A stretch of 64,000 nucleotides of DNA. Origin: Balneola sp. (GTDB lineage: Bacteria; Bacteroidota; Rhodothermia; Balneolales; Balneolaceae). Numbering within the stretch: position 1 is the first letter of the stretch; each line of letters starts with the position of its first letter. Position numbers and translations under genes: made by a program. This document shows, piece after piece, positions 34,494 through 41,400 of this stretch. The DNA is taken from assembly GCA_017640785.1 (NCBI GenBank), contig JAEPPZ010000011.1, forward strand, positions 1-64,000, given 5' to 3'. Under the pieces are notes generated by a model. That model saw only the letters and a list, made by a program, of their open reading frames with translations, was not told the origin of the DNA and did no database searches.

Positions 34494-35585
34494 TTATCCG
34501 GTTTTGGCAATTTCAATAATATCACTCAAAACTCCTGCAGCGGTGACTTCTTTTCCCGCTCCGGGCCCCTGAATTACAATGGGAGATTCGGCATAACGTT
34601 CTGAATAGATCTGGATCAGGTTATCCGTTTTTTGTAGTCCTCCCAATGGTGAAACTGTGGGAACCTCTTTAATTCCTATCTCAATTCCATCAGGAGTGAA
34701 TTCCCCGGTGTATCTAAGACGTTTGTTGTTTAACAATGCCTGTGAGTTTCTGTTTTTCCAATGATCATCATAAAAAGAGAGATGATCTAAAAAGCCGTTA
34801 ACCTGGTAATCTATGAGTTCTTTTGGAACCAGTGACTCTACTTTGATCTGATCTCTCTCAAATTTATATCCACAGGTTCTTGCCATTATTAAAAACTTGC
34901 GGGCTACATCTTCTCCGGATAGATCGTCTCTTGGATCGGGCTCGGAATAACCTTCCTTTTTTGCTGCTTTTATTATTTCACTGAAAGCAATTCCTTGTTG
35001 GAGCTGATTAAAGATGTAGGTCATAGTACCTGAGACCACACCGGATATTTTTGTTATGGAATCGCCTGATTCGATCAAATTAGTAATGGTGCTGATGACC
35101 GGAAGTCCGGCGCCAACAGCAGTTTCATATCTGTATTGTGCCTTTCCCGGTTGTTGAAAAGCTTTAAGTTCCTCAAAATAACTCTGTTCAAATGTGTTTG
35201 CTCTTTTGCTGGGTGTTGTAATATGAATTCCCTTAGAAAGAAGTTTTAGATATTGACGGGCTACAATTTCGCTTCCGGTTGCATCTATGAAAATGAGCCC
35301 TTCAGGATAACGAGCGAGTTTATTTGTAATATTTTCCCAATTGGTTTCTTCGTCAGAATATCTAAGTTTTTCATGAATCAAGTCAGGATCGGGATTCCAG
35401 ATCACTTTTTTGCTGTTACAAACGCCAGCAATTTTAACTTGGAACAGAGCATTATTAAGATGATTGATTTGTCGGATGAGAGTTCCACCAATGGCTCCGT
35501 TTCCAGCAATAAACACGGGAATAGTTTTTTTGCTCTTATATATGGATATGTTTTTTCCGCTAATTGAATTAAGTGTGATGCTCAT
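34494..35585 (-). CDS. hom: Homoserine dehydrogenase
   Basis: Reduces aspartate semialdehyde to homoserine, the branch point to Met and Thr. 363 residues, closer to the dehydrogenase half of ThrA/MetL than to long ACT-containing forms. There is no aspartokinase and no ACT domain. Motifs are VFIAGNGAIGGTLIRQI (nucleotide binding, ~24), THITTPSKRA-like segment (~120), SGVVSGTMTYIFNQL (~182) and EGYSEPDPRDDLSGEDVARK (~205, the substrate-binding stretch). It is the third gene of the metY-metX-hom operon and its start overlaps the metX stop by 17 bases. Lack of ACT fits control at the RNA level here. Confidence 0.92.
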   Translation of the reverse strand: MSITLNSISGKNISIYKSKKTIPVFIAGNGAIGGTLIRQINHLNNALFQVKIAGVCNSKKVIWNPDPDLIHEKLRYSDEETNWENITNKLARYPEGLIFIDATGSEIVARQYLKLLSKGIHITTPSKRANTFEQSYFEELKAFQQPGKAQYRYETAVGAGLPVISTITNLIESGDSITKISGVVSGTMTYIFNQLQQGIAFSEIIKAAKKEGYSEPDPRDDLSGEDVARKFLIMARTCGYKFERDQIKVESLVPKELIDYQVNGFLDHLSFYDDHWKNRNSQALLNNKRLRYTGEFTPDGIEIGIKEVPTVSPLGGLQKTDNLIQIYSERYAESPIVIQGPGAGKEVTAAGVLSDIIEIAKTG

Positions 35586-36624
35586 AGAGTGATTTAGTAG
35601 AGTGATAAAATGATATCAGATGTTTATTGATTTGTTCGAATTCGATCAAAAAGGCATCATGACCGTAATCGGAATGGATTTGATTGAACTCTGAATCAGG
35701 AATTAATTCGGAAAGTTCTTGTTGCTGAGCTATCGGATAAAGAAGGTCAGAATCAATGCCAAGAATCAAACATGGTATTGATAAAGAACCTAAAGCTTCT
35801 CTAAAAGAACCACGATTTCTTGATACATCATGGGAATCCATGGCTTTTGTTAAAGTGATATATGTGTTGGCATCGAATCTGGAAGAGAGTTTTTCTCCCT
35901 GATGATCTAAATATGATTCTACCTCATACTGATCTTTATTCCTGTTGAAGTCTCTTCGGAATTTGTGCTCATAATTTTGAGGAGAACGGTAAGTGATCAT
36001 TGCAAGAGCTCTGGCTGCAGATAAACCTTTCTGTGGAGGGACTTTTGGATCATAAAATCCATCCTGCCAATGTTCATCCGCATAAATAGCTTTTCTTTGT
36101 GCATGACTGATTCCTATAGCCCATGGAGTATGAGATTTCCCCATAGCAAATAAAGCTAAAGATTGGATTCTTGGATCCATCAGTCCGAATTCCAATGCTA
36201 CCATGCCGCCCATCGATCCGCCTATTGCCAATTCAACACCTCTAATACCAAGATGATCAAGCAGTAATTGTTGATGTGTTACTATATCCCGAATGGTAAT
36301 TTCCGGAAAATCTGCCTGATAGGGTTTCCCTGTAACAGGCGATACAGAAGTGGGTCCGGTTGATCCGTAACAACTGCCCAAGTCGTTAATACACAAAACA
36401 AAGTGTCGGTCAAGATCAATAAATCCTGTAGGCTCAAAAAGACCGTAAAACCAATCTTTTGCATTAGAACTTCCGGTCAATGCATGACAGATCAGAATCA
36501 CGTTGTCCTTTTTTTCGTTAAGTGTCCCCCAACTATTCCAGGCAATATTCAAAGAAGGAAATTCAAACCCGGATTCGGTAGTCCGGGCTTGATTAATTGT
36601 TGTGATATTTGGTTTGTTGCTCAT
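35569..36624 (-). CDS. metX: Homoserine O-acetyltransferase
   Basis: Activates homoserine with acetyl-CoA for sulfhydrylation. 351 residues from ATG 36624, fixed by AAGGAG six bases upstream; a longer frame exists but overlaps metY. Alpha/beta hydrolase with VILICHALTGSSNAKDW (~43), CYGSTGPTS (~84), the nucleophile serine in ELAIGGSMGGMVALEFG (~129), and Asp and His in LILGIDSDLLYP (~290) and SDYGHDAFLIE (~320). Second gene of the SAM-regulated methionine operon. Confidence 0.95.
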   Translation of the reverse strand: MSNKPNITTINQARTTESGFEFPSLNIAWNSWGTLNEKKDNVILICHALTGSSNAKDWFYGLFEPTGFIDLDRHFVLCINDLGSCYGSTGPTSVSPVTGKPYQADFPEITIRDIVTHQQLLLDHLGIRGVELAIGGSMGGMVALEFGLMDPRIQSLALFAMGKSHTPWAIGISHAQRKAIYADEHWQDGFYDPKVPPQKGLSAARALAMITYRSPQNYEHKFRRDFNRNKDQYEVESYLDHQGEKLSSRFDANTYITLTKAMDSHDVSRNRGSFREALGSLSIPCLILGIDSDLLYPIAQQQELSELIPDSEFNQIHSDYGHDAFLIEFEQINKHLISFYHSTKSLYEHHT

Positions 36625-36646
36625 AAAAGCTCCTTGTCGAAATACA

Positions 36647-37981
<1,335 letters not shown>

Positions 37982-37992
37982 TTATAATTAAT

Positions 37993-38030
37993 AAAAAAGC
38001 CCCTTTCGGGGATGAGTCCGAAAGAGGCTT
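37993..38030 (-). terminator. Riboswitch-controlled terminator upstream of metY
   Basis: On the minus strand AAGCCtCTTTCGG pairs with CCGAAAGgGGCTT around the loop ACTCATCC, followed by TTTTTTA. The loop sequence ACTCATC (38011-38017) is the exact complement of GATGAGT, the 3' strand of riboswitch helix P1 (38054-38060). This gives an obvious antiterminator. Confidence 0.88.
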
Positions 38031-38053
38031 ACAAATACAGTAGAGCTCTTCGC

Positions 38054-38174
38054 ACTCATCTTTCTCAGTACAAATATTTGTACTAAGCAGGATGTAGCAC
38101 CTTTTCCTGTACAAATAGTACAGGACGGTTGCCAAGGCTTCGCAGGACCTGATCCCTCCACCTTTCTCGATGAG
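38054..38174 (-). ncRNA. SAM-I (S-box) riboswitch
   Basis: Read on the minus strand it has all S-box landmarks in order: P1 CTCATC / GATGAG; GGTGGAGGGATCAGGTCC, GAAGCC and TTGGCAACC (P2 with the pseudoknot loop); P3 CCTGTAC / GTACAGG; the invariant AAAAGGTGCTACATCCTGC junction; P4 AGTACAAATATTTGTACT; and GAAAGATGAG closing P1. SAM binding would stabilise P1 and free the terminator at 37993-38030, shutting off metY-metX-hom. Only recognition by eye was possible, but the match is very strong. Confidence 0.95.
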
Positions 38175-38213
38175 AATGCATGATGTTAAAGAACGAATGA
38201 AACTAACAGCCAA

Positions 38214-38251
38214 TAAAAAAGTCCTTCAGATCATACACTCTAAAGGACTTT
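38214..38251 (-). terminator. First (upstream) attenuator terminator of the met operon
   Basis: On the minus strand a perfect 9-bp stem AAAGTCCTT / AAGGACTTT with a 16-base loop ends in TTTTTTA. It stands 30 bases after a Met/Cys-rich leader reading frame and 40 bases before the SAM-I aptamer. No long gene ends here, so it makes sense only as an attenuator. Confidence 0.78.
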
Positions 38252-38282
38252 GAAAATTTCTTTTCTAAAATATAAAAGCCCT
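38244..38282 (-). promoter_or_regulatory. Antiterminator pairing of the leader attenuator
   Basis: AGGGCTTT (38275-38282), which begins inside the leader stop codon TAG, can pair with AAAGTCCT (38244-38251), the 5' arm of the terminator. The helix has 8 bp with one G-U. A ribosome at the stop codon would mask the first strand and let the terminator form. A ribosome stalled earlier leaves it free. Confidence 0.6.
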
Positions 38283-38319
38283 AGTGAAGTGTTCGCATAT
38301 AGCAACACATACACATCAT
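38281..38319 (-). CDS. Met/Cys-rich leader peptide of the metY operon
   Basis: A 12-codon frame reads MMCMCCYMRTLH and then TAG. Four of 12 residues are Met and three are Cys, the two end products of the pathway downstream. A weak GGGAA precedes it. It is followed by an antiterminator/terminator pair arranged as in classical amino-acid leader attenuators. Low ribosome speed at Met or Cys codons (scarce charged tRNA) would favour read-through to metY. The function is inferred entirely from composition and RNA structure. Confidence 0.62.
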   Translation of the reverse strand: MMCMCCYMRTLH

Positions 38320-38413
38320 TTCCCGGGCGATATATTGGTTTGTTAATTTCATTGGTTTAAGATTACGAGTTAGATTTTTAGAATGCAACAGAAATTTTAC
38401 CGGCTAAAAATTA

Positions 38414-41400
38414 CTAATCATTTTTCAGTTTGTTTAGAATTTCCTGAATTGCTTTTTCCAATTGAGGGTCATTTCCATTCACCCGATCTTTGAACGTATT
38501 ATGAACTTCAATATCCGGTGCAACACCTGTTTGTTCAATATTTTCACCATCCAAAGTGTATAATCCCCAGGAAGGTAATCTGTAAAAAGAACCATCCACT
38601 AATCCTTTTCCGGAAGTAAATATGATCCATCGATACGTTTCGGTTCCCATCACAGTTCCAAGTCCTAATTGCTTGAATCCTTCTGCAGTAACTTCAGCAT
38701 CTGAGAGTGATTGTTCATTGATCAGGAGAATAATGGGCTTGTCAGCCGGAGCAAAATTTGACTGTGGGGCCAACTCTCCACCACGATACGCCCAGTTTGC
38801 GTACTGCCTCTGAGATAAGAAACGAAGCACGTCATCGTGTACATTTCCTCCGGTATTATAACGCAGGTCAAATATCAGGGCGTCTCGGTTGTAGGCTTCG
38901 GATGTCATTTCGATGAGAAAGTTATTCAATTCGCCGCCACCCATATTCTTCATGTGAACATATGCGACTTTCTTGTCCGTTTTTTCATCTACCATTTTCT
39001 GGTTTCCGGAAACCCATTCATCATACAGATCGTTACGGTCAGAGAAGTAGGATGTAGGGTGAATCTTGATGTCAATATTAGAGCTACCCTGTTTGAAAGT
39101 TAGTGTAACTTCTTCAGGCATGGATGGTACGCTGAAATACATTTCACGATTCATTTTAGCATCAACTGGTTTTCCGTTTACAGCTATGAGTTCATCTCCG
39201 GTATTAATTTTATTTCCTGAAATGTGAACGGGTCCCGTTTCGATTATCTCGGATACCTGATAAGGATTATCTTTATCCCAAATTATTCCTGTTGCCATCG
39301 AAACGGTTGAGTAAAACTGGTTTTCTTCGTCCCCAAATGTGTTGAATCCCATATGAGAAGAATTGAGTTCTCCAAGCATATCATTGTTCATTCGACGCAG
39401 ATCGGCACGGGAATCAACATAAGGTAGATATTTTTTATATCGGTCTTTGATTTTCTTCCAGTCTATTCCGTGGAAAGTTTCATTGTAGAAATTCTCTTCA
39501 ATATTCGCCCATAACTCATCAAACATTTGATAGAATTCATCCTGAAGATTTCGCTCAAAAGAATGGGATACATCAATTTTATTTGCTTTAGCTGATGAAG
39601 GATCCAGTTTATTGATAGCTCCCCTGATAAGACCGTAAAGTTGACCGTCTACTTCTATGATCCCTGAAACAAACCCGGTTCCTTCAAAACTTTGTGTTTT
39701 TGGTCGTTCAAAAGGCTCGAAGGTGGTAACAGAAAGTGTGAAATCACCTTCATTGTGATTGCTGCCATACAGAACCATAGATTTATCATCTTTCTGAGTG
39801 ACAAATGGTGAGAATTGATTTCCAAAACCTTCTCCGACGCGTTCAACACGTTGCATCAGATTGGTGGTGTTTATTTCGATAGTGAGTTTTTCTTCTTCTT
39901 CCTTGTCGTCTTTTGAATCTTCACTTTTTTCTTTTTCAGCAAAAAGTTCATCAAATAAATCAGATTTATAGGGATCGTCGTAATAGTCTAGTGGAATTCT
40001 GAAAAGGTCAGTTTCTCCGGCGCCTCTTGGATACGAAGGAACACTTCTGCTCCCTGTGTAATAAATATATTTGCCATCAGGCGACCAAAATGCTCCGTTT
40101 TCATCTACACCGGTGTTGGTGAGATTCATGGTTCTTTCTGAATCCAGATGGTGGACATAGATGTCCAATTCGAAATCGTGTTTCGCGCTGAAAAGTACAT
40201 ATTCGCCATTAGGAGAAAACATTGGAGCTACATTTTGAAATCCCCAAAACTCGTTTTCTACTAATGTTTTGCTTTTGAAATTATCAAGATCAATATGTCG
40301 AAGCAGATCTCTCCCGCTCAGATAAACACCGGCAGTACGATCGTGATTCAGTGCAAGGTCTCTATTATTTCTTTTGTCGGATGTATGTTGTTTTTCAGTA
40401 CCGTTTCCATCCGCAGTAATGGTAAACCAGTTTTGGTATCCATCCACAGTTTGATTGAAGATCAGGGTTTTGTTATCTGCCAGCCATTTCACTTCTAATA
40501 CTCTTCCCATGCTGTTGGTCTCGATCTGACGAACAAATTTCCCTTCTGCATCAGAAACGAACAATTCTCCTCTGGAAATAAAAGCCATTTTCTTTTTGTC
40601 AGGGGAAACATCAAAAGCGGAGATATTATCCTTTACATCAAAGCTTTGAGATTTAGTGAGTGTATTATTTTTGGTGATGGTTACATCGATCTTCGATGCT
40701 CTGTTTGAAGCGGCATCATATTTGTATAGTTCATAGTCTCTTTCAAAAACAACGACGCTACCGTTGGGACTTACAGACGGATTATAAATGGACGTATTGA
40801 ATCTGGTGAGTTGTTTTTTCTGCCCGTTTTCCAGTGTGTAAAGATTGTACTCGTAATTAGCTTCATCAGATACAAAATACACGTTTCCATTCTGATCAAT
40901 AGTAGGGGAGAAGTCTTTTCCTTCCCAGCTGGTATGTTCAGTATAAGTGTCAGTCTCGGGATTGTATGATTTTATATCCGGATTAAAAGAACCGACATAT
41001 CTTTTTCTCTGTGGAAATATGAAGCTTTCCCAGGATTCATTGAAGTAGAAATCGCCGGATGAAGGATGTTCTGCCAGATTGTGAACAGTATTATGATAGT
41101 GCTCAAATAATCGGGATGGGGTTCCACCTTCAGCGCTTATTTCAAAAGCAGTTATTCTGTTGTAGCGATTAGAACTGAAATAGATCTTTTTGGAATCCCA
41201 CGACCATGATTCCACCTGATCGTTAGCTTGATGAAAGGTCAGTTGATTAATCTCACCGCCGGTTGCAGGCATGATATAGACATCGTTATTCCCATACTGA
41301 TTTGAAGTAAACGCGATCCAGTTACCATCCGGAGAAATACTCGGGTTGGTTTCTTCGCCGTCCATAGCAGTAAGACGAGTAGCTTCTCCACCATTTTTTG

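Follow-up and report, generated by a model that had tools for sequence, protein, structure and literature searches.

Organisation of the metY locus

The window (the whole 64,000-nucleotide stretch of the Balneola sp. contig analysed here) carries metY, metX and hom on its minus strand. In the direction of transcription, these genes are preceded by a promoter, a short leader ORF, a terminator (T1), a boxA-like element, a SAM-I aptamer and a second terminator (T2):

38360..38388, minus strand: predicted promoter TTGCAT-17-TAATCT, by consensus match only
38281..38352, minus strand: leader ORF of 23 aa, MKLTNQYIAREMMCMCCYMRTLH, superseding 38281-38319
38325..38336, minus strand: segment 1 (AAUAUAUCGCCC), predicted to pair with segment 2 when the ribosome is absent
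38302..38319, minus strand: Met/Cys codon block MMCMCC, with a further single Met codon at 38298-38296
38269..38281, minus strand: segment 2, the putative antiterminator 5' arm, made up of GGGCUUU, which starts at the final base of the stop codon, and the bases next to it
38218..38251, minus strand: predicted intrinsic terminator T1 (segments 3 and 4), AAAGTCC...GGACTTT followed by a T-run
38184..38194, minus strand: boxA-like GTTCTTTAACA, assigned by resemblance, between T1 and the aptamer
38053..38176, minus strand: SAM-I (S-box) riboswitch aptamer, RF00162, 75.4 bits (gathering cut-off 44.4)
37997..38030, minus strand: predicted terminator T2, the SAM-I expression platform, from the terminator scan
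36647..37963, minus strand: metY, O-acetylhomoserine sulfhydrylase, TIGR01326, 685.3 bits (cut-off 495.1)
35569..36660, minus strand: metX, homoserine O-acetyltransferase, NF001209, 366.8 bits (cut-off 331), start as mechanically listed
34494..35585, minus strand: homoserine dehydrogenase-like gene, the best profiles scoring below their own cut-offs

Of 58 genomes, counting the window's own, 53 have a metY orthologue, with E values no higher than 1.5e-103. The metY of the nearest named record, Balneola sp. HCUG1436-7 (L115), is 99% identical to that of the window. The family name of TIGR01326 is O-acetylhomoserine aminocarboxypropyltransferase/cysteine synthase. As MetY belongs to the OAH/OAS sulfhydrylase family, which is named for making homocysteine or cysteine, either compound, and hence both amino acids, are plausible MetY products. 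We rejected the idea that MetY must be the only source of Cys, since the genome also encodes CysM (above its cut-off) and a CysE-like protein (below its cut-off), which may offer a route to Cys that bypasses MetY. We are unsure about reverse transsulfuration in this genome, because L197 falls below the cut-offs of both the cysteate synthase and the cystathionine beta-synthase profiles, and the only profile passed by L203 is one for cystathionine gamma-synthase.

The initial annotation had placed a Met/Cys leader peptide at 38281-38319. An ORF is indeed present there on the minus strand, translating as MMCMCCYMRTLH*, with seven of its twelve codons being Met or Cys (4 Met, 3 Cys) as had been proposed. 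The stop codon and frame of that ORF stand, and the evidence favours a start at ATG 38352 over 38319. The frame stays open upstream of 38319 as far as this ATG. In L007, from the same genus, the codon at the earlier start is TTG (a possible start itself) and the upstream ATG is kept, while the N-termini MKL or MKF recur among the leaders across genera. Together with promoter-like boxes located 5-8 nt before the upstream ATG, this makes 38352 most likely the true start. The pattern TGYTGYATGTGY occurs at 2 places elsewhere in the window's own genome.

In the window, 7 nt separate the promoter -10 box from the leader ATG. A TTG-N17/18-TA box pair ending 5-8 nt before the upstream ATG was found at 33 of 57 loci, compared with 0.70 expected from shuffles, in a count for which three starts were adjusted by hand. 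Given this spacing, the leader mRNA is predicted to be leaderless, starting at or beside the ATG. A generic scan did not list TTGCAT-17-TAATCT.

Recurrence and codon content of the leader ORF

We searched the 230 nt upstream of the SAM aptamer for short ORFs in which 12 residues contain five or more Met/Cys, two or more of them Cys. Such an ORF is present at 55 of the 67 loci of the order, compared with 0.43 expected from 40 dinucleotide shuffles per locus; these are related loci, and the counts are not independent. At least one match was found in 28 of the 36 genera of the order. By the same criterion, no leader was found upstream of the 11 metH-like SAM-I loci of the order or at the 34 SAM-I loci of class members outside it. 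Lowering the threshold to 4 Met/Cys gave 58 order, 0 metH-like and 1 outgroup loci. SAM-I itself is present in 211 of 244 genomes in the class-wide search, and precedes metY at 66 of the 67 order loci and at 25 of the 34 outgroup loci. The presence of the leader at metY loci of the order, together with its absence from the metH-like and outgroup sets, indicates that it accompanies metY in this order and not SAM-I riboswitches generally. L001 and L111 were dropped as repeats of L002 and L025.

A second SAM-I riboswitch lies before a metH-like gene in the relatives L089-L098 and L114. These genes were recognised by their N-terminus, of which a 45-residue piece scores 20.1 for homocysteine S-methyltransferase (cut-off 22).

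Twelve of the 67 order loci fall below the leader threshold. No leader is recognisable at L022, L034, L042, L101 and L104, weaker leaders occur at L030, L035, L036, L040, L043 and L049, and the leader of L109 is Met-rich, with 5 Met and a single Cys. In L022 and L042, an upstream gene resembling the end of Era reaches to approximately 90 nt before the aptamer, and the L104 SAM-I locus precedes a distant PLP-enzyme relative that is 30% identical to MetY.

The last 16 codons of 57 leaders contain 212 Cys and 168 Met among 912 codons in the reading frame. Of the other two frames of the same tails, one holds 4 Cys and 7 Met codons and the other 133 Cys and no Met. This frame count is biased, as the 57 ORFs had been picked for their Met/Cys content. 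An unbiased pick took any ATG located 5-8 nt after a TTG-17/18-TA promoter pair and within 300 nt of the aptamer. It yielded one ORF each at 41 of the 67 order loci and no ORF at the 11 metH-like or 34 outgroup loci, and the ORF was the leader in 39 of the 41 cases (exceptions L050 and L051). Not counting the start codon, these 41 ORFs comprise 887 codons, of which 119 are Met and 143 are Cys. All 39 leaders contain at least 2 Cys, and 37 of the 39 have at least one internal Met.

It might be argued that the ORF is a chance occurrence and that conservation reflects only the RNA, with its SAM-I riboswitch and hairpins. The SAM-I riboswitch is certainly predicted, and relatives lacking the leader ORF exist, with 25 of the 34 outgroup SAM-I loci preceding metY, none of them with a leader. 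Such a reading is nonetheless hard to reconcile with the 55 observed matches against less than one expected, or with the Met/Cys richness of the promoter-picked ORFs, as composition played no part in that pick, and we regard it as extremely improbable. A regulatory leader peptide, as originally suggested for this operon, is very probably correct, given the Cys and Met codons in the leader tails and the attenuator hairpins predicted downstream.

Residue order drifts between leaders (MMCMCCYM, MCMMCKM, MCCMYMCK, CMCMCMMC and MAMCCMPC, for example), while the Met/Cys content stays. Across the 57 leaders the Met and Cys codons are mostly located 4-12 codons before the stop. Distinct 16-residue tails contain Cys in 54 of 54 cases and Met in 53 of 54, with means of 2.9 Met and 3.7 Cys. 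The Met and Cys counts per leader are uncorrelated (-0.05), and thus give no sign of one residue compensating for the other.

Joint sensing of Met and Cys is the simplest reading of these counts, and likely. The same attenuator could instead respond to only Cys (or only Met) codons, the other residue being incidental. Leaders in other Bacteroidota are mainly Cys runs, and the leaders of L035 and L043 contain 3 Cys and no internal Met; the latter observation slightly raises our estimate for a single-residue sensor. Yet Met is nearly as rich as Cys in the order ORFs picked by promoter, at least one Met is retained in all but one of the distinct tails, and L109 keeps its Met codons beside the lone Cys. 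We therefore consider a single-residue sensor unlikely, while according it some weight. Within joint sensing, Cys may weigh more than Met, in view of the two leaders that have no internal Met.

The Cys/Met-rich composition could also suit a peptide that is itself the product: a thiol/thioether-rich micropeptide, or an arrest peptide sensing metal, thiol or SAM in the exit tunnel. This appears very unlikely, as residue order varies while the composition and the position relative to segment 2 are conserved, and as the hairpins described below suit codon-dependent stalling. Three leaders tested against NCBIfam gave no family match, which also speaks against a peptide product.

Predicted terminator, antiterminator and riboswitch

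A terminator scan of 37900-38500 identifies T1 and T2 only, whereas shuffles give 0.3. The initial annotation had overlooked these elements, namely the terminator/antiterminator and, between leader and metY, the SAM-I riboswitch with its own terminator. An intrinsic terminator thus lies between the leader and the structural gene. The predicted folds include a mutually exclusive antiterminator that uses the T1 5' arm, and the short ORF is over-represented in codons for the products of the pathway.

An alignment was made of 54 of the 57 loci (the window stands for L002; L043, L004 and L006 were left out). T1 covaries: we found 92.4% of cells to be paired, compared with at most 78.0% in slid versions. 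Six of the nine pairs have changes on both sides, and 30 cells are changed on both sides versus 6.8 in shuffles. The count of different pair types, one of five measures of covariation, was not above shuffles (12 versus 11.0, 113 of 500).

Pairing of the stop-codon region with the T1 5' arm was studied at 57 of the 67 order loci (excluding L022, L029, L030, L034, L035, L038, L039, L042, L101 and L104). The stop-codon region pairs with its own arm with a mean energy of -13.6 kcal/mol versus -7.4 when shuffled, while the controls give -3.6 for the ORF body and -3.4 kcal/mol for the DNA after T1. Because segment 2 was located by pairing energy, the absolute energies are biased, and this bias is addressed by the region controls and by a swap test of own arm versus the arms of other genomes. 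The swap test replaced a 2:3 covariation count, segment 2 being out of register between rows of the MAFFT alignment. Own arms have a mean rank of 0.215 across 56 loci, 41 of which are in the best quarter (L043 was excluded, its T1 being doubtful). With one locus per distinct arm, the mean rank is 0.179 (n = 39), and that of the control 0.513. The strongest partner of a stop-codon region thus tends to be the terminator arm of its own locus. Among the terminator picks, those of L002-L006 correspond to the 1:2 hairpin and not to T1, and those of L022, L030, L034, L035, L038, L039 and L104 are unconvincing.

The whole window leader is predicted to fold with both 1:2 and 3:4 formed, at an MFE of -38.1 kcal/mol (z -4.4). 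The 1:2 hairpin is clear in this fold; 1:2 pairings elsewhere are listed without controls. When folding begins at 38300, a boundary chosen to mimic a stalled ribosome, a 2:3 antiterminator with an outer helix is predicted at -16.3, with 3 of 200 shuffles as good. The ribosome footprint extends approximately 12-15 nt beyond the A site. A ribosome located at the last Cys codon would cover part of the outer helix and not AGGGCUUU:AAAGUCCU. The modelled folds match the three states of a textbook attenuator.

Not all loci share this output step, as T1 is missing from L035 and from genus g24 (L029, L030, L038 and L039). In g24 the Met/Cys ORF is kept and T1 is replaced by one long hairpin. In uncontrolled folds, this hairpin occupies the 130 nt before the SAM aptamer, embeds the ORF and ends in the U-rich boxA region. 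It may couple the same sensor to another kind of output platform.

Between T1 and the aptamer, the boxA-like element recurs widely. Of the 67 order loci, 63 carry TTCTTT in the 70 nt that precede the aptamer, where 6.31 would be expected. The motif also occurs at 1 of the 11 metH-like loci and at 5 of the 34 outgroup loci, of which four (L055-L057 and L086) have it at the same spacing; it is absent from the other 10 metH-like loci (among L089-L098 and L114). In the relatives, the GTTCTTT element is mostly located 14-24 nt before the SAM aptamer. As no 16S was found in the window's own assembly, three relatives were used for comparison: boxA-like motifs occur in the 16S leaders of two and a variant in the third, with other T-rich matches also present. 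The element may protect the untranslated leader from Rho.

The window aptamer is the only SAM-I match in the genome. Read from the sequence, GAUGAGU (38060-38054, the P1 3' strand) is complementary to ACUCAUC (38017-38011, in T2), and the P1 3' strand would thus compete with the terminator as in a SAM-I platform.

A candidate two-gate switch and its relatives

An attenuator with a Met/Cys leader is very likely. It is, in our view, highly probable that a classical ribosome-mediated attenuator of transcription, with the ORF as its sensor, lies in series with the SAM-I riboswitch, and the serial action would follow from the layout. From the observed parts, their order, conservation and covariation, and the mutually exclusive predicted folds, we infer translation, stalling, termination and ligand response, as well as the relative weight of Met and Cys.

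In the proposed mechanism, transcription would begin at or beside the leader ATG, and ribosomes would translate the leader behind RNA polymerase. When Met-tRNA and Cys-tRNA are both well charged, the ribosome would reach the stop codon and cover segment 2, allowing 3:4 to form T1. Shortage of either charged tRNA would stall the ribosome within MMCMCC-Y-M, 5-12 codons before the stop, leaving segment 2 free to pair with segment 3 and thereby blocking T1. If the leader is not translated, 1:2 would form and T1 would terminate. Once past T1, the polymerase would continue beyond the boxA-like element to the SAM-I aptamer, where high SAM would lead to a stop at T2 and low SAM to entry into metY-metX-hom. 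With two terminators in series, the operon would be transcribed only if both are passed, and would be fully on only when low SAM coincides with low Met-tRNA or low Cys-tRNA.

Attenuators of the trpL, hisL, thrL and ilvL type comprise a short leader with regulatory codons, segments pairing as 1:2, 2:3 and 3:4, and a U-tract terminator. The locus described here resembles them in its leader with putative regulatory codons, in the three predicted pairings and in the predicted intrinsic terminator with a U-tract. It differs in combining Met with Cys, in a segment 2 that begins in the stop codon, in its predicted leaderless start and in the SAM-I riboswitch that follows it. Several regulatory residues occur in the textbook leaders thrL (Thr/Ile) and ilvL (Ile/Val/Leu), which weakens the earlier contrast with known leaders, said mostly to repeat one residue. 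The locus has the aptamer and terminator platform of SAM-I (RF00162) ahead of metY, but a separate putative leader-peptide attenuator comes first, so that two terminators would guard the operon. The mgtA leader of enterobacteria is a Mg2+-sensing leader that contains the proline-rich mgtL ORF; it likewise unites metabolite or ion sensing with a leader peptide in one 5' leader, although the ligands differ.

Polycysteine leaderless short ORFs of mycobacteria were reportedly described by Canestrari in 2020. Our locus resembles these ORFs and the cys leaders of Actinobacteria in its Cys-rich short leader before sulfur genes, and promoter geometry predicts a leaderless start for it. The consulted portion of PMC1262725, which deals with the Actinobacteria cys leaders, states that Mycobacterium leaders have no conserved terminator hairpins; by contrast, T1 is a predicted intrinsic terminator that covaries. 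Relative to the leaders in that portion, the present ones also include Met and have a SAM riboswitch downstream. According to the available part of PMC8632094, the uORFC-8-2 motif ahead of cysS in Rhodobacterales has tandem Cys codons and an intrinsic terminator. It therefore shares a uORF with Cys codons plus an intrinsic terminator with the present system, but contains Cys only and precedes cysS, whereas metY follows here, and no SAM riboswitch is mentioned for it in that part of the article.

In the portions consulted of the literature searched (including PMC12452182, PMC2965389, PMC6230763, PMC13236596, PMC4239095 and PMC11540073), we found no description of a SAM riboswitch preceded by a Met/Cys leader, or of leader-peptide attenuation of Balneolota/Bacteroidota sulfur genes. 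Excerpts from PMC9723704 report hints that leader peptides attenuate amino acid operons in Flavobacterium psychrophilum from an upstream position, and an overlap between those leaders and the Met/Cys leaders is possible.

We extended the search to 74 distant metY loci, 58 from the FCB group and 16 cyanobacterial or other (L189 and the near relatives L115-L119 were left out). Of the 58 FCB-group loci, 21 have a short Met/Cys-rich ORF no more than 450 nt from metY (0.15 expected), as does 1 of the 16 others. SAM-I was searched in 50 of 62 far loci, and was matched to metY by coordinate and strand within 1.5 kb, irrespective of contig identity. It was found within approximately 1.5 kb upstream of metY in 35 of these 50 records (at about 1.5 kb in L121 and L122), and 17 of the 35 also have a leader. 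The leader comes first, followed by SAM-I, in 2 records (L120, Ignavibacteria, and L132, Bacteroidetes FK3.bin26). SAM-I comes first, with the leader nearer to metY, in 15 records, among them Pedobacter, Pontibacter and Hymenobacter. A leader alone occurs in three records (L126, Melioribacter; L146, Gemmatimonadetes; L187, Saprospiraceae), and neither element in 12. The order leader then SAM-I thus appears to characterise Balneolales and some Ignavibacteria-like records, and SAM-I then a Cys-rich leader many Bacteroidia.

A terminator-like hairpin is found between leader and metY in 8 of the 21 far cases (L120, L126, L132, L146, L149, L163, L179 and L187) and is absent in the other 13. Since 12 of the 15 SAM-I-first leaders have no such hairpin, a Rho-dependent or other output is possible for them.

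On balance, we favour with moderate confidence a serial two-gate RNA switch, responding to (low Met-tRNA OR low Cys-tRNA) AND low SAM, in which a leaderless dual-codon attenuator is combined with SAM-I, the modules being stacked in opposite orders between lineages and either occurring alone elsewhere. If this holds, levels of the charged tRNAs of both sulfur amino acids and the level of SAM would be integrated in one natural RNA circuit, and two separate terminators would guard one operon. It would also extend leader-peptide attenuation to the Met/Cys pair and to Balneolota/Bacteroidota sulfur genes. The comparative series of leader alone, riboswitch alone, and both in either order offers material for asking why RNA sensors stack.

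In metY operons of other Bacteroidota, the leaders on the metY side of SAM-I in L144, L145, L149, L150, L159, L160, L163-L167, L179, L183, L185 and L191 are Cys-rich. Within some genera, a small CoA-binding-domain gene is located between the SAM riboswitch and metY (L019:955-1452 and L099:932-1522), and that of L019 matches PF13380 with 113.1 bits.
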